The position numbers and the translations under genes are program-made. The notes under the pieces are model-generated. The model was not told where the DNA came from and did no database searches. It saw only the letters and a program-made list of their open reading frames with translations. Positions 1-5,369 of a stretch of 9,596 nt of DNA are shown piece after piece. The stretch covers positions 1 to 9,596 of the forward strand of contig JAGVCB010000049.1 in assembly GCA_020059445.1 (NCBI GenBank), in the 5' to 3' direction. The stretch's first letter is position 1; the number at the start of each line of letters is the position of its first letter. Origin of the DNA: Polynucleobacter sp. GTDB taxonomy: Bacteria > Pseudomonadota > Gammaproteobacteria > Burkholderiales > Burkholderiaceae.

Positions 1-90
1 CGCACCTGTGAAATCTGCTGCGAAGGCTGTTGTTACTGTTGAAAGTGCAATCGCACCAGCAACCAATGATTTTGTAAATAATGCTTTCAT
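1..90 (-). CDS. pstS: PstS phosphate ABC transporter substrate-binding protein, N-terminal fragment (runs off the window)
   Basis: Only the first 30 codons are present. The gene starts at ATG 90-88 and continues past the left edge. The visible peptide is a Sec signal peptide: basic start MKALFTK, a hydrophobic core of Leu, Val, Ala and Ile, then a likely signal peptidase I site after AFA. The mature protein begins ADFTGA, matching the start of PstS proteins (usually A-D/S-x-TGAG-A-FP). PstS is the periplasmic high-affinity phosphate-binding subunit of the PstSCAB importer. A good ribosome binding site (AGGA, 6 nt before ATG) and a candidate Pho box promoter lie upstream. In Burkholderiales the pst operon usually follows glmM, which supports the call. 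Arsenate is a known competing ligand of phosphate transport, relevant to the neighbouring ars genes. With 30 residues visible, another secreted binding protein cannot be fully excluded. Confidence 0.75.
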   Translation of the reverse strand, partial: MKALFTKSLVAGAIALSTVTTAFAADFTGA

Positions 91-164: not shown

Positions 165-251
165 CTTGAGAGATTCTCGTTAATCAACTAGATTACAATA
201 AGCATATAAAAATCATATACTTAAATTTAAAATATTCATGAGACTCAAGTA

Positions 252-277
252 AAACATGCCCTTTAAAGGGCATGTTT
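252..277 (-). terminator. Palindromic intrinsic terminator downstream of acr3
   Basis: This is a perfect 26-bp palindrome with AAACATGCCC and GGGCATGTTT arms around a TTTAAA centre. It lies 43 nt after the acr3 stop codon. Read on the minus strand it ends in GTTTTACTT, a short U-run, so it can end the arsenic operon transcript before pstS. No plus-strand gene precedes it. The insulation would keep read-through of the ars operon from reaching pstS. Confidence 0.65.
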
Positions 278-314: not shown

Positions 315-334
315 GCTTTATCAGGCTTTATCAG
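315..334. repeat. Tandem 10-bp duplication across the acr3 stop codon
   Basis: GCTTTATCAG occurs twice in direct tandem (315-324 and 325-334, plus-strand reading). On the coding strand this gives ...GAT AAA GCC TGA TAA, so the duplication creates the last codons and puts two stop codons in a row. It is probably a slippage duplication that slightly changed the C-terminus. Confidence 0.7.
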
Positions 335-1334
335 GTGCCCAACGGTTTACCAGTGCCACCAAGCTCAACATCACTGGCACTTCAACCAAGACACCCACCA
401 CAGTGGCTAAAGCTGCCCCCGAGTTCAAGCCAAAGAGCGAGATGGCTACAGCCACAGCCAATTCAAAGAAGTTAGAGGTACCAATCAAACAGGCAGGGCC
501 TGCCACTTGATGAGGCAACTTCAATAACTTGGCACCCCAATAAGTGATAAAGAAAATGCCATAGGTTTGAATGATCAATGGTATTGCAATCAAGCCAATC
601 ACCAAAGGTTTATCAATGATGGTTTGAGCCTGGAATCCAAACAACAAAACCACAGTTGAAATCAAACCAAGGATTGAGGCTGGTTTAATACTCGCCACAA
701 ACTGACTCACTGCATCAGCAGATTTCTTTTGCAACAAACTTCTTGTTAAAACTCCCGCAATCAAAGGAAGAACAACATACAAAAGTGTTGAGAGTACCAA
801 GGTCTCCCAAGGCACAGTGACATTAGTCACACCCAATAAGAAGGCAGCGATCGGTGCGAAGGCCACCACCATGATGAGGTCATTGATTGAAACTTGCACC
901 AAGGTGTAGCTAGGATCTCCTTTGACCAATTGACTCCAAACAAACACCATGGCGGTGCACGGGGCCACACCTAACAAGATCATGCCCGCGATGTACTCTG
1001 AAGCTTCTTGAGGATTAACCAAGCCAGCAAAAATATACTCAAAAAACAAAACACCCAACACTGCCATCGTGAATGGCTTGACCAACCAGTTAATGATGAT
1101 GGTCAAAAACAATCCAGCCGGTTTTTTACCCACATCTTTGACCGCTGACCAGTCAATTTGAACCATCATTGGGTAAATCATGACCCAAATGAGAATGGCC
1201 ACGATCAAATTAACGTTGGCAAATTCCAAACCTGCAATGACTTGGAACACTCCAGGAATCGACAAACCCAGAACCACGCCTAAAACGATGGCCAAGGCCA
1301 CCCAAACTGTTAAGTAACGCTCAAATAAACCCAT
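321..1334 (-). CDS. acr3: Acr3-family arsenite efflux permease
   Basis: This 337-residue protein is full length for the Acr3 (BART superfamily) arsenite transporters. It exports As(III) across the inner membrane, driven by the membrane potential. It is almost entirely hydrophobic, with about ten membrane segments (roughly residues 8-28, 41-60, 74-98, 112-135, 143-168, 176-199, 217-236, 244-266, 276-302 and 306-330). The family cysteine is C126 in [13 protein letters not shown], and the essential glutamate of the last segments is E318 in [20 protein letters not shown] (285-295) is also typical. It starts at ATG 1334 with only a weak purine-rich ribosome site, 71 nt after arsC. It is the last gene of arsR-arsI-arsC-acr3 and is followed by a palindromic terminator. 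ArsC makes its substrate from arsenate, and ArsI can supply more from organoarsenicals. ArsB is a different family and does not fit. Confidence 0.95.
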
Positions 1335-1405: not shown

Positions 1406-1897
1406 TTACTTAACTTCTGCAAGTTTCTTAAGTTCTGCCTGAATGGTCATGCCGTCTAATTTTTCAAGTGGCATCGCCGCCAAAAGATCCATGCGTTTTT
1501 TTAAACCATACATCACTGCTTTGAATGCTTGTCTCTTATCATCATCAGAGCCTTGTACCTGTGATGGGTCAGGGTATCCCCAATGAGCAGTGGATGGCTT
1601 ACCTGGCCAGAATGGGCAAACCTCGCCAGCAGCGTTATCGCAAACCGTGATGATGAAATCCATTTGAGGTGCATCATCTTTGCCATAAACATCCCAGCTC
1701 TTTGAAATCAATTTTTCTTCTGGATAACCCATTCCTAGTGCTAATTCAGCGGCAAAAGGGTTGACCTTCGTGCCAGGTGTTGAGCCCGCTGAATAACCGA
1801 TAAAGCGACCACTCTCATGAGTTGAAGCGATGGCTTCTCCAAGAATAGAACGCGCAGAGTTGTGTGTGCATAAAAAGAGGATGTTGTATTTTTTCAT
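1406..1897 (-). CDS. arsC: Arsenate reductase ArsC, low-molecular-weight phosphatase family
   Basis: This 163-residue cytoplasmic enzyme reduces arsenate to arsenite. The P-loop CX5R is at residues 10-16 (C-T-H-N-S-A-R, followed by S17), which places it in the LMW tyrosine-phosphatase fold and not in the glutaredoxin-fold ArsC of E. coli plasmid R773. Resolving cysteines are C86 ([10 protein letters not shown]) and C94, eight residues apart. The phosphatase-type acid D110 sits in [19 protein letters not shown] is characteristic of proteobacterial ArsC encoded beside acr3. The electron donor (thioredoxin, or glutathione and glutaredoxin) cannot be told from the sequence. It starts at ATG 1897 with a modest purine-rich site (AAGAGAAG), 61 nt after arsI and 71 nt before acr3. 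Role in the operon: make arsenite for Acr3 and, through arsenite, the inducer of ArsR. Confidence 0.95.
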
Positions 1898-1958: not shown

Positions 1959-2435
1959 TTATGAACAGCTTTTTGTTGTTTTTTTGATTGAACCAATTGA
2001 AACACTGGCTGTGGTTGACGGAACACAGCAAGCACTGGCCTCAGCAGTGCTTACGGCTGCTTCGTTAAAAACCGGAATTGAATCCAAGGTGTGAAAAGTT
2101 TCCCAAGGAATACCAGAGGGATCATTCACCCAGTACTTATCTGACTTGGCATAACAGCAAGCAGTTCCCTCTTCTTCAACCAAGTCAGCCTGTAATGTGT
2201 CTAGACGAGTCTTCATGTCAGATAGCTCTGCAGCGTCTTCCACTTGAATACCCAAATGGTTTAAACCTTCGGCCGCACCTCTGGCAGAAATTGCAAAGTT
2301 GATCTTTGGATCTTCTAATTGCCATTTGGCGTAATCAGTTTTTTCAGTAGTAGGTTCTGTGGCAAACATCTTTGAGTAGAAAGAAATACTTTCTTTCAAA
2401 TTTTTTACTCCCACGTGAATGTGCATGCGTTTCAT
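1959..2435 (-). CDS. arsI: ArsI/CadI-family VOC metalloenzyme (probable C-As lyase)
   Basis: This 158-residue cytoplasmic protein has one vicinal-oxygen-chelate (glyoxalase-like) domain. The ArsI family members that have been studied are Fe(II) dioxygenases that cleave the carbon-arsenic bond of trivalent organoarsenicals such as methylarsenite, releasing As(III). Family marks are KTDYAKWQLEDP (32-43), the likely metal ligands H5 (or H7), H60 (LNHLGIQV) and E112 (WETF), and the vicinal thiol pair C93-C94 (EGTACCYAKSDKYWVNDPSG), which binds the arsenical in characterised ArsI. After residue 120 comes a low-complexity Ser/Thr/Ala tail with extra cysteines C136, C137 and C157. The start ATG 2435 overlaps the arsR stop by 4 nt (ATGA) and has a clear AGGAG 7 nt upstream, so translation is probably coupled. 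CadI-like cadmium-induced proteins share the fold. The ars operon favours the arsenic role, but the substrate is inferred. No arsM methyltransferase is in view. Confidence 0.85.
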   Translation of the reverse strand: MKRMHIHVGVKNLKESISFYSKMFATEPTTEKTDYAKWQLEDPKINFAISARGAAEGLNHLGIQVEDAAELSDMKTRLDTLQADLVEEEGTACCYAKSDKYWVNDPSGIPWETFHTLDSIPVFNEAAVSTAEASACCVPSTTASVSIGSIKKTTKSCS

Positions 2436-2767
2436 GATTGAACTCCTGAAATGTTTGAATTATTTTCTTCGGTGAGACAGGGTTGACCACCACAACAGTT
2501 AAACAAAAGAAAGTCCATGAGGTTGGTCACTTGTCTTGAATGTGGTCGATAAATCAAGTTTCTACTTTGACGTTCAACCAAAATAAGATTGGCCTGATAA
2601 AGTTCCTTGAGATGAAAAGACAAAGTGGCCGCTGGAATACCCAGGGTCTCTTTGATTTCTGAAGGAGTGACTCCCTCAGCGCCCTTTTGAACAATCAGTC
2701 GAAAAATATTGAGCCTTGATTCTTGACCAAGGGCTAGGAAGGATTGAACTGCGTCAGAATTTTTCAT
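2432..2767 (-). CDS. arsR: ArsR-family arsenite-responsive transcriptional repressor
   Basis: This 111-residue winged-helix repressor has a helix-turn-helix at about residues 34-57 (SEIKETLGIPAATLSFHLKEL) and a beta-wing near 62-74. It lacks the classic ELCVCDL metal site. Instead it carries the C-terminal triad C91, C92 and C97 (NCCGGQPC), the arrangement of the Acidithiobacillus ferrooxidans type, in which three such cysteines bind As(III). A two-cysteine methylarsenite sensor is less likely, since the third cysteine is present. The frame stays open upstream to 2887, but I choose ATG 2767: the protein then begins like its family (MKNSDAVQSFLALGQESRL) and the extra 40 codons would run through the promoter. 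The ATG has no convincing Shine-Dalgarno and the mRNA may be leaderless. It is first in the arsR-arsI-arsC-acr3 operon and presumably autoregulates through the palindrome 2769-2786. Confidence 0.93.
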   Translation of the reverse strand: MKNSDAVQSFLALGQESRLNIFRLIVQKGAEGVTPSEIKETLGIPAATLSFHLKELYQANLILVERQSRNLIYRPHSRQVTNLMDFLLFNCCGGQPCLTEENNSNISGVQS

Positions 2768-2768
2768 G

Positions 2769-2786
2769 ATTCCATGATAATGGAAT
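2769..2786. promoter_or_regulatory. Probable ArsR operator (perfect inverted repeat) over the -10
   Basis: ATTCCAT-GATA-ATGGAAT is a perfect inverted repeat with 7-bp arms, ending one base before the arsR start codon and covering the candidate -10 (2779-2774). A dyad of this size over the promoter of an arsR gene is the usual layout of an autorepressor site. Binding by ArsR is inferred and not shown by the sequence. Confidence 0.6.
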
Positions 2787-2807
2787 AATATGACAGATAT
2801 ATGACAT
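2774..2807 (-). promoter_or_regulatory. Pho box promoter of the arsR-arsI-arsC-acr3 operon
   Basis: On the minus strand, 2807-2790 reads ATGTCAT-ATAT-CTGTCAT. This agrees with 17 of 18 positions of the E. coli PhoB-binding consensus CTGTCATAWAWCTGTCAY; only the first base differs. Exactly 10 bp downstream is TATCAT (2779-2774), 5 of 6 to the sigma70 -10, the canonical Pho-promoter spacing. There is no recognisable -35. The predicted transcription start, 7 nt beyond the -10, is at about 2767, the A of the arsR ATG. The same layout occurs at pstS. PhoB control is inferred from this match. Confidence 0.7.
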
Positions 2808-2880
2808 TTCAGTGATAGCCCGCCCCGCCAATTAAGGCGCCTGAGTGAACTTTTTGTGACTTGCCTTATTTGTCTTGAAA

Positions 2881-2926: not shown

Positions 2927-3124
2927 ATGTATACCTATGAAGAAGCCGTTAAACAATTACAAGAAACTGGTTCCATCAGTTTAATGAATTTCAAAGAGTT
3001 GCCTTACGATGACCTAGAGGAACTATTAGAAGAAATTAAGAAGTGGTGCGTCTATGCCAACGGCAACAAAGACAAGCTAGAGAAAAAATCCAAGAAAAAG
3101 GATAAAAAGAAGAAAAAGAAGTAA
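2927..3124 (+). CDS. Small protein of unknown function with a polylysine tail
   Basis: I do not recognise this 65-residue protein. It has two parts. Residues 1-46 look like a compact, acidic, mostly helical unit (EEAVKQLQETG, then NFKELPYDDLEELLEEIKKWC) with a single cysteine, C41. Residues 48-65 are almost all lysine, 11 of the last 13 being Lys. No membrane segment or signal peptide is seen. The gene appears real: it has a strong Shine-Dalgarno at the right distance, a TTGACA-containing promoter candidate, ordinary codon use in the first part, and its own terminator (3144-3188). It diverges from arsR across 159 bp and converges on glmM. The basic tail suggests binding to nucleic acid or another polyanion, but that is a guess. 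Whether it came with the ars genes or was already next to glmM cannot be decided here. Confidence 0.75.
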   Translation: MYTYEEAVKQLQETGSISLMNFKELPYDDLEELLEEIKKWCVYANGNKDKLEKKSKKKDKKKKKK

Positions 3125-3188: not shown

Positions 3189-4499
3189 GGCCTGATCTTG
3201 AGCTTGGAGAGCATTTTGTGCTTCGACCATCACTCTGAGCAAAGGTTCTGTGCCTGATGGCCGAATCAAGACTCGGCCACTGCCGCTGAGGTTTTTCTCT
3301 GCTTGTGTGATTGCCTCTTGGATTTTGGTATCAGTCTTCCAGTCATAACCTTGTTTGTATTTCACATTGATCAAGGTTTGAGGGAACAAAGTCACCTTCT
3401 CTAATAGTTGCGCCAAAGTTTGTTGATTTTGCTTCAATGCAGACAACACTTGGAGTGCTGCCACGATCCCATCACCAGTCGTGTGCTTGTCAAGACAGAT
3501 GATATGTCCAGAGCCTTCACCGCCCAATTGCCAATTGTTTTCTTTTAGCTTCTCAAGAACATAGCGATCACCCACTTTGGCGCGCTCAAATTCAATCCCT
3601 TCAGCTTGAATGGCTTTTTCAACGGCCAGATTCGTCATCAAAGTACCAACCACGCCTTTGACCGATTCACCCGCATCTTTTTTGGCCTTGGCAATCAAGT
3701 AAAGAAGTTCATCGCCGTTGAATAATCTGCCATGAGCATCGACCAGTTGAAGACGATCAGCATCACCATCAAGTGCAATACCAAGATCTGCTTTTTCCTC
3801 TTTGACTTTTTCAATCAATGCTTTGGGTGCTGTAGCACCCACACCATCATTGATGTTTTTACCGTTAGGATGAATACCAATCGAAACAACTTCAGCACCT
3901 AACTCATGGAAGACATGTGGGGCAATGTGATATGCCGCACCATGAGCACAATCCACCACCAACTTAAGACCATGAAGACTCAAATGATTCGGGAAGGTAC
4001 TTTTACAAAATTCAATGTAACGACCAGTAGCATCATCCAAACGCTTTGCTTTACCCAAGTGAGCTGAGTCCACGCAGTTCATCGGCTCATTGAGAGCCGC
4101 TTCGATTTGTAATTCAACAGCATCATCTAATTTGTCACCATTGGCAGAAAAGAATTTAATGCCGTTGTCGTGATAAGGATTGTGTGAAGCCGAGATCACA
4201 ACCCCTGCAGATAGTCGAAGCGTTCTGGTGAGATAAGCCACTGCTGGAGTTGGCATTGGGCCACACAACATCACATCCACACCAGCAGCTGAGAAGCCAG
4301 CTTCTAGAGCGGCTTCTAACAAGTAACCTGAAACACGGGTGTCTTTACCAATCAATACAGTGGGCTTGCCATGAGTGCCAGCATTTTTAGCCAATACTTG
4401 ACCGGCAGCGTAACCCAAGCGCATCACAAAGTCAGGGACGATCGGAAACTTGCCGACTTCCCCACGAATACCATCTGTACCAAAATATTGACGTGTCAT
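3159..4499 (-). CDS. glmM: Phosphoglucosamine mutase GlmM
   Basis: GlmM converts glucosamine-6-phosphate to glucosamine-1-phosphate, which GlmU turns into UDP-GlcNAc for peptidoglycan and lipopolysaccharide. At 446 residues it is full length for the alpha-D-phosphohexomutase family. The N-terminus YFGTDGIRG (5-13) is diagnostic for GlmM. The phosphorylated serine is S105 in ISASHNP (102-108), the Mg2+ loop DGDADR is at 244-249 (D244, D246, D248), the sugar-binding loop GEGSGH at 327-332 and the phosphate-binding RPSGTEP at 413-419. All catalytic parts are intact. It starts at ATG 4499, 9 nt after the folP stop, with no clear Shine-Dalgarno, which suggests coupling to folP translation. It is the last gene of ftsH-folP-glmM. 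Its final codons also encode, on the other strand, the terminator of the small convergent gene. In related Burkholderiales pstS usually follows directly; here the ars module intervenes. Confidence 0.97.
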
Positions 4500-4508
4500 A
4501 TATGCATT

Positions 4509-5369
4509 TTATAAGTATTCTTGGGCGGCACACCAAATTTTCACAGCATCAATGGTTTGATCAACATCATGCACCCTCAATACCCTGGCCCCACGCTCTA
4601 AAGCCATCAGAGCTGCCGCCACGCTCGCGGTTTGACGATGAGCCATGTCTTTGCCTGTGATAGCACCCAAACTGGATTTTCTAGAAATCCCAGCGACCAC
4701 CGGGAAGCTGTGTTGGCAGAATGCTTGAAAGTGAGCCAACATGGCCATGTTGTGCGCCAAGGTTTTACCAAAACCAAATCCTGGATCAATGGCTAAACGA
4801 TCGCGATCAACACCTTCATCTTCTAAAGCCACGCATCGCTCTATCAAGAAGCCATTCACTTCAGCCACCACATCTTGGTAGTGTGGATCGAATTGCATGG
4901 TCCTTGGATCTTTTTGCATGTGCATGAGCATCACACCACATGTGCTGTTAGTAACAGCTTCGATCGCATGCGGTTGTCTGAATGCCCAAATATCATTCAC
5001 GCAATCAACACCAAGATTGATTGCAGCACTCATGACTTTTGCTTTGTAGGTATCAATTGAGATTGCTACCGGCGCATCTTTAAGTAGCTCTAAGACAGGC
5101 ATGACGCGGTCTAACTCTTCTTGTAGAGACAAGGGTTCAGAACCAGGACGACTGGACTCGCCACCCACATCAATCATTTCTGCGCCTTCAGCGATCAATC
5201 GTTCTGCTTGCTTGAGTGCTGCATCACGATTAGCAAAAAGACCACCATCAGAAAAAGAGTCTGGTGTGACATTGAGGATGCCCATCACCACCGGAGCCGT
5301 GCGTTTGTTCCAGTCAAAAAGAAAACGCCCGCAGCGCCATGCCACGGGCGTTAAATCATGCTTTGCCAT
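4509..5369 (-). CDS. folP: Dihydropteroate synthase
   Basis: FolP joins p-aminobenzoate to dihydropterin pyrophosphate to give 7,8-dihydropteroate, a cytoplasmic folate step and the target of sulfonamides. The 286 residues are a complete TIM barrel with all signatures: MGILNVTPDSFSDGG (29-43), DVGGESSRPGS (67-77), IDTYK (105-109), VNDIWAF (124-130), LMHMQ (148-152), DPGFGFGK (195-202), GISRKS (227-232, catalytic-loop K231) and RVHDV (265-269). There is no sign of a resistance-type duplication or insertion. ATG 5369 shares its A with the ftsH stop (TAATG), so translation is probably coupled. The ftsH-folP-glmM order is common in proteobacteria. Odd: codons 6-18 contain a strong terminator-like hairpin and T-run, so part of the ftsH transcripts may end before folP and glmM. 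Confidence 0.97.
   Translation of the reverse strand: MAKHDLTPVAWRCGRFLFDWNKRTAPVVMGILNVTPDSFSDGGLFANRDAALKQAERLIAEGAEMIDVGGESSRPGSEPLSLQEELDRVMPVLELLKDAPVAISIDTYKAKVMSAAINLGVDCVNDIWAFRQPHAIEAVTNSTCGVMLMHMQKDPRTMQFDPHYQDVVAEVNGFLIERCVALEDEGVDRDRLAIDPGFGFGKTLAHNMAMLAHFQAFCQHSFPVVAGISRKSSLGAITGKDMAHRQTASVAAALMALERGARVLRVHDVDQTIDAVKIWCAAQEYL
5316..5352 (-). terminator. Terminator-like hairpin within the first codons of folP
   Basis: On the minus strand AACGCCCG (5352-5345) pairs with CGGGCGTT (5331-5324). The stem extends inward by TGGC/GCTG (two G-U and two G-C pairs) to 12 bp, closing a 5-nt loop ATGGC. The T-run TTTTCTTTTT (5325-5316) follows at once. It lies 17 to 54 nt after the ftsH stop and within folP codons 6-18. 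In form it is a full intrinsic terminator; whether it ends transcription or is masked by ribosomes on folP is unknown. Confidence 0.55.

Follow-up and report, generated by a model that had tools for sequence, protein, structure and literature searches.

A near-consensus Pho box in the -35 position of a Polynucleobacter arsR promoter: predicted joint control of an arsenic detoxification operon by PhoB and ArsR

Introduction

Arsenate is a look-alike of phosphate and enters the cell via phosphate transporters, so that scarce phosphate should raise arsenic stress. Marine picocyanobacteria carry phosphate/arsenic gene islands, and the arsenite oxidase (aio) genes are, in the available parts of the literature, often flanked by ars and pst genes. 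Regulatory links between the two elements have been published in both directions, with PhoB acting on arsenite oxidase genes and ArsR acting on pst/pho. According to the accessible portions of these reports, PhoBR of Halomonas sp. HAL1 controls the arsenite oxidase genes aioBA at low phosphate via a Pho box that is 56% identical to the Escherichia coli consensus, lies antisense and is found within 21 bp of the start codon (PMC4563254), PhoB of Agrobacterium acts on aioXSR at low phosphate (PMC7533571), and ArsR1 of Agrobacterium tumefaciens 5A represses phoB1 and pstS1 (PMC7965956). The excerpts at hand further describe an ars cluster of Nodularia spumigena that includes the gene of the phosphate-binding protein SphX (PMC3610870), and list arsR of Cupriavidus metallidurans among leaderless mRNAs (PMC7563307). 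In E. coli, the accessible data place a PhoB binding site inside arsR, with RNA values of 61 in the wild type and 66 in the phoB mutant, that is, no effect; binding near arsR therefore need not regulate. In the open-licence literature, as far as its accessible text goes, we found no report of a PhoB-driven ars detoxification operon, and arsenic terms do not occur in PMC1906773. Here, we describe an ars operon of Polynucleobacter whose promoter is predicted to be under such control.

The ars locus and its promoter

The window (the whole stretch of 9,596 nucleotides that was analysed) is contig C143 of a 1.14 Mb assembly that consists of 226 contigs and is 66.5% complete. The nearest named locus among the best 80 of 579 confirmed relatives is that of Polynucleobacter sp. 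AM-26B4, with an identity of 91% for ArsR and 97% for GlmM. The minus strand carries arsR, an arsI-like gene, an arsC-like gene and acr3 in this order, and pstS begins behind acr3, at 90:

2435..2767, minus strand: arsR, with its ATG at 2767; Pfam HTH_20 and HTH_5 above cut-off
1959..2435, minus strand: arsI-like gene (ArsI/CadI family); NF041414 above cut-off
1406..1897, minus strand: arsC-like gene, thioredoxin type by best match; Pfam LMWPc domain above cut-off
321..1334, minus strand: acr3, arsenite efflux; TIGR00832 above cut-off
247..277 (approximate limits), minus strand: strong hairpin, possible terminator, in the acr3-pstS gap; 11-bp stem, folding z-score -4.4
1..90, minus strand: start of pstS, which runs on into contig C209

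ArsR scores 54.4 bits against NF033788, just below the cut-off of 55, and the best family of the arsC-like gene, TIGR02691, is matched at 59.2 bits, far below its cut-off of 174.3. The first 14 bases of the window also form the end of contig C209, on which pstS is matched from residue 2 of its family model and which carries phoB as well; this places the ars operon immediately upstream of the pst genes. Positions 252-277 of the acr3-pstS gap form a 26-nt self-complementary stretch, AAACATGCCCTTTAAAGGGCATGTTT; the hairpin makes co-transcription of ars and pst seem unlikely, although it is absent from the terminator-scan listing. A small divergent gene (2927-3124, plus strand) encodes 65 amino acids with a lysine-rich end and has no Pfam or NCBIfam match at E 0.001; its relative in genome G032 adjoins pstS with no ars genes between.

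The following elements were located upstream of arsR and, for comparison, upstream of pstS:

2790..2807, minus strand: Pho box ATGTCATATATCTGTCAT, predicted PhoB site; one mismatch to the E. coli consensus, 21.6 bits by the genus pstS matrix
2774..2779, minus strand: -10 hexamer TATCAT, 5/6 to TATAAT
2769..2786, minus strand: perfect dyad ATTCCAT-GATA-ATGGAAT around the -10, ArsR operator as predicted from the sequence
2801..2818, minus strand: overlapping weak box CTATCACTGAAATGTCAT, possible third half-site; 8.0 bits
2845..2862, minus strand: distal box-like site AAGTCACAAAAAGTTCAC; 13.7 bits
147..164, minus strand: Pho box of pstS, ATGTCACAAAACTTTCAT; 25.8 bits, four mismatches to the E. 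coli consensus

The arsR box comprises two direct repeats of 7 bp that stand 4 bp apart, matches the E. coli consensus CTGTCATAWATCTGTCAY at 17 of 18 positions, and is separated from the -10 by exactly 10 nt (2780-2789), which puts it in place of a -35; the window's arsR promoter has no TTG -35. An initial annotation of this DNA had reported the minus-strand box, the hexamer 10 nt away and the perfect dyad over that hexamer, and all three were recovered at these positions. Its further claim that the arsR box is better than the pstS box holds against the E. coli consensus (one versus four mismatches) but not by the genus matrix (21.6 versus 25.8 bits, the latter for a box that itself belongs to the matrix training set). 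The arsR ATG (2767) stands only 6 nt behind the -10, which would put the start point on the start codon, and the arsR mRNA is thus likely to be leaderless.

Further upstream, the 18-mer at 2801-2818 may represent a third half-site at a distance of one 11-nt repeat, and the distal site at 2845-2862 lies exactly 55 nt, or five 11-nt repeats, from the main box. A similar sequence precedes arsR in five of seven other aligned loci (L010, L008, L012, L009, L005), and another lies in G032 between the small gene and pstS, which have no ars genes between them there; pst, ars or the small gene may be what the distal site serves.

pstS reference promoters and conservation in the genus

The pstS promoters of the genus provided a reference for PhoB sites. 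pstS was found by DNA search in 6 of 61 genomes and by the family model in 55 of 61, and the scoring matrix was built from 26 genus pstS boxes, of which 24 came from 30 loci and two were the boxes of L121 and L144; of the loci outside the 24, L121, L132, L136 and L144 had been mispicked, and no start was found for L134 and L141. TANNNT follows exactly 10 nt behind the box in all 24 pstS boxes (the 26-box set minus L121 and L144). Behind the 79 arsR boxes of at least 4 bits it follows at 9 nt in 36, at 10 nt in 24-26 and at 11 nt in 14-17, five boxes being readable in two ways. The layout of the two promoters is therefore alike, with a less strict spacing at arsR.

Of 121 genus genomes, 101 encode an ArsR at E 1e-20 or better. 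For 104 of 109 arsR starts, the zone 20-26 nt before the ATG has its best consensus score at 22, 23 or 24 nt, and with the pstS matrix the arsR site is the top one among 283 upstream positions for 92 of the 109 genes. This site reaches at least 4 bits in 79/109 genes, compared with 0.027% of background positions, and stays below 4 bits in 30/109; the window's box is the third highest of the 109, and box quality drops with distance. Six genes are clearly without the site (G091, G003b, G025b, G069b, G077b and G110.2, the last being the second of two tandem arsR genes). Column information over 80 register-22 upstreams is 1.04 bits in the box and 1.30 in the last 22 columns, against 0.07-0.08 further upstream. 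The dyad core TTCnA-N6-TnGAA is present in 102/109 arsR upstreams, always 2 nt before the ATG, and its centre is TATAAT in 57 of these 102. The initial annotation had named a box not conserved among related strains as grounds for giving up its reading; in the genus alignment the box, its spacing, the dyad and the start codon recur through the genus, and the arsR box is, as judged from these upstream regions, a genus trait and not one of the window's strain alone.

An inverted TGACA-N6-TGTCA repeat, perhaps the site of another regulator, lies just upstream of a weak arsR box in one clade (L227, L231, L233, L225, L230). ArsR loci of the same kind also occur, among the best 80 of 579, in records labelled Methylopumilus, Bordetella parapertussis, Bacteroidetes and Obscuribacter (L088, L089, L096, L108), which reflects either horizontal transfer or misbinned contigs.

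Specificity of the box and the two regulators

None of 200 dinucleotide shuffles of the whole window contained a box as good, by consensus or by matrix. MTGTCATNNNNMTKTCAT occurs a single time in the whole assembly, and the genus Pho-box pattern TGTCAYANNNNNKTCAYA has exactly two matches there, at pstS and arsR. With at most one mismatch, the pattern finds 13 assembly sites versus two for the reversed control pattern; 7 of the 11 one-mismatch sites are inside reading frames of at least 100 codons and 4 are outside, two of them without a clear target and the other two as follows:

G000 C209:717-734 and 5253-5270 (L277, L278): box-like sites, in the gap between a PlcP-like phosphoesterase gene and an acyltransferase gene and in the ppx/ppk gap

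The domains found beside these sites are Metallophos and Ppx-GppA, and the genes are named PlcP-like and ppk here. Both sites are likely to be further parts of the Pho regulon, with lipid remodelling among its functions. By matrix, at least 8 bits are reached in 51 named loci by 23 of 51 arsR genes and by 6 of 580 other genes; pstS (2) and PlcP-like genes (2) are the top four of these six, the place of pstS being partly circular, since the matrix was built from pstS. In L085 and L087, a PlcP-like gene whose box scores high (about 4100-4940, minus strand) is situated a few kb away from arsR.

Both presumed regulators are encoded. PhoB of the window's assembly scores above the family cut-off (346.6 versus 296.2 bits), as it does in 114/121 genus genomes, leaving 7/121 without. 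Its DNA-binding domain aligns with that of E. coli PhoB at E 5e-37, with VEERTVDVHIKRLRAAL facing VEDRTVDVHIRRLRKAL in the region that we take to be the recognition helix. ArsR matches PDB 6j05, presumably the Acidithiobacillus ArsR, with Cys 91, 92 and 97 aligned; these three C-terminal cysteines, which we assume to bind arsenite, are invariant in 20 aligned ArsR.

The genomes lacking PhoB were considered as natural knock-outs and set aside. The only single-contig, 99% complete member of the seven is G017 (L154, L155), a complete small genome with an arsR box-like remnant of 6.2 bits, stops in pstS, an arsC matched in two frames and an asymmetric arsR dyad; because pstS, operator and arsC decay as well, G017 is no test of PhoB control.

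Proposed control and alternative explanations

Taken together, the DNA data make it probable that PhoB activates the arsR-arsI-arsC-acr3 promoter during phosphate starvation and that ArsR keeps it repressed as long as arsenite is absent. The reading of the initial annotation is supported in this form, with PhoB binding, the phosphate response and the two-input logic as its predictions. In its favour are the two exact pattern matches, the matrix ranking, the shared layout with pstS, the column information, the rarity of such sites at other genes, the encoded PhoB and, by the main thresholds given below, the lack of loci with both box and TTG -35; against it stand the genes below 4 bits, the loci with neither element, the one locus with both when any TTG is counted, the box-like remnant of G017 and the E. 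coli case of PhoB binding in arsR with no effect on RNA. Phosphorylated PhoB would bind the direct repeats and recruit RNA polymerase without a -35, ArsR would cover the -10 and block it until arsenite is present, and transcription would start at or beside the A of the ATG and yield a leaderless arsR mRNA. Such an arrangement would have the cell prepared to reduce arsenate and export arsenite at times of high Pst uptake and hence of high arsenate entry. With PhoB and ArsR on one promoter, arsenate detoxification would follow phosphate starvation.

As to how the two inputs are combined, the missing -35 favours an AND gate, and the good -10 leaves room for an OR. The comparison of box and -35 among relatives drew on the best 80 of 579 confirmed relatives and on 23 of 30 further loci, the window's own locus and six same-genus loci being left out, and the resulting 103 loci (57 close and 46 distant) include the identical-ArsR pairs L246/L083, L244/L078 and L253/L114. 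With thresholds of at least 4 bits for the box and at least 4/6 matches at 16-18 nt for a TTG -35, 50 loci have the box, 11 the -35, none both and 42 neither; no -10 was found in 8 distant loci of these 42. When any TTG is counted, it occurs in 18 of 104 loci, one of which (L261) has a TTG plus a box. The box label requires 18 changes on the ArsR tree, versus a shuffled mean of 35.1 (0/500 as low), but only 12/98 inner branches are well supported, and an independent-pairs test of box versus -35 gave no signal either way. Because of this weak tree support and the uninformative pair test, it is from the pattern that we infer that the box and the -35 replace each other.

We tentatively propose, at close to an even bet, an AND gate in a freshwater Burkholderiales lineage that crosses families, in which ars would be core to the Pho regulon, the box would stand for the -35 of relatives, and arsenite alone would be insufficient in phosphate-replete cells. 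PhoB may instead bind and only add to a weak PhoB-independent promoter, so that arsenite alone would induce phosphate-rich cells. This OR-like behaviour is a serious possibility, if not the outcome that we expect: the -10 is TATAAT in many relatives (the 57/102 dyad centres above) and a -35 may be dispensable, but none of the 57 close loci has a TTG -35, and the box sits at the spacing expected for -35 replacement.

Whether PhoB is the activator can be questioned on the grounds that many OmpR-family regulators bind direct repeats and that the PhoB model matches nine regulator genes in the window's assembly (one above cut-off) and up to 19 in relatives. Binding of the TGTCAT repeats by another response regulator of this family, in answer to a different signal, is nevertheless unlikely, given that a matrix made from pstS promoters alone finds the arsR site, that the motif also stands beside the PlcP-like and ppx/ppk genes, and that the arsR box differs at a single base from the PhoB consensus of E. 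coli. Even less credit is due to the idea that the repeats are the outer part of the ArsR operator, with no role for PhoB. Box and dyad do adjoin and are conserved together, and ArsR footprints elsewhere can be long; against this, the dyad persists in 18 of 29 distant named loci, and several of these have a TTG -35 but lack the box, as in Cupriavidus and Azohydromonas, where a TTG at the -35 place and a dyad-like repeat are followed directly by the ATG, and the same repeats occur at pstS, with no such dyad seen in the pstS sequences read. The clade's operon lies between the small gene and pstS and shares the distal site with the ars-free stretch of G032, but it is the least probable account of all that the arsR site is a functionless by-product of the neighbouring pst promoter after ars insertion, as the proximal box is kept where ars is elsewhere, with 37 of 51 close named loci reaching 4 bits and only 4 of the 51 having pstS in the locus (up to 16 kb each).

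Implications for arsenic defence

If the ars operon is wired to PhoB, the bacterium answers the cause of arsenate uptake and not only its result, and the defence would be on at the very time at which arsenate uptake is predicted to increase. Phosphate status would then govern how these bacteria resist arsenic and release arsenite, and tests in media rich in phosphate could overlook the resistance. Whether an ArsR promoter that is otherwise constant carries a Pho box or a -35 is visible in its sequence, so that the connection of arsenic defence with scarce phosphate can be tested in different lakes and lineages.

Comparison with known systems

With class II PhoB promoters, represented by pstS of the genus, the arsR promoter shares a Pho box about 10 nt before the -10 and the lack of a -35; it differs from them in the dyad over the -10 and the start codon directly behind. 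As far as the available part of its source goes, arsR of C. metallidurans is alike in having the -10 directly before the start codon, and the Cupriavidus loci examined here have a TTG -35 and no Pho box. N. spumigena likewise keeps arsenic and phosphate genes together, with no Pho box at arsR described in the portion of the report at hand (PMC3610870). In A. tumefaciens 5A, the accessible account shows ars and pst/pho genes that adjoin and are cross-regulated (PMC7965956), but with the direction reversed, as there ArsR represses pst/pho, whereas here PhoB is predicted to activate ars. The aio systems of Halomonas and Agrobacterium, so far as their reports are accessible, are alike in that PhoB, via a Pho box and at low phosphate, acts on arsenic genes, those genes serving arsenite oxidation. 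In the window, by comparison, the predicted target is a detoxification operon, and its near-consensus box occupies the -35 position.
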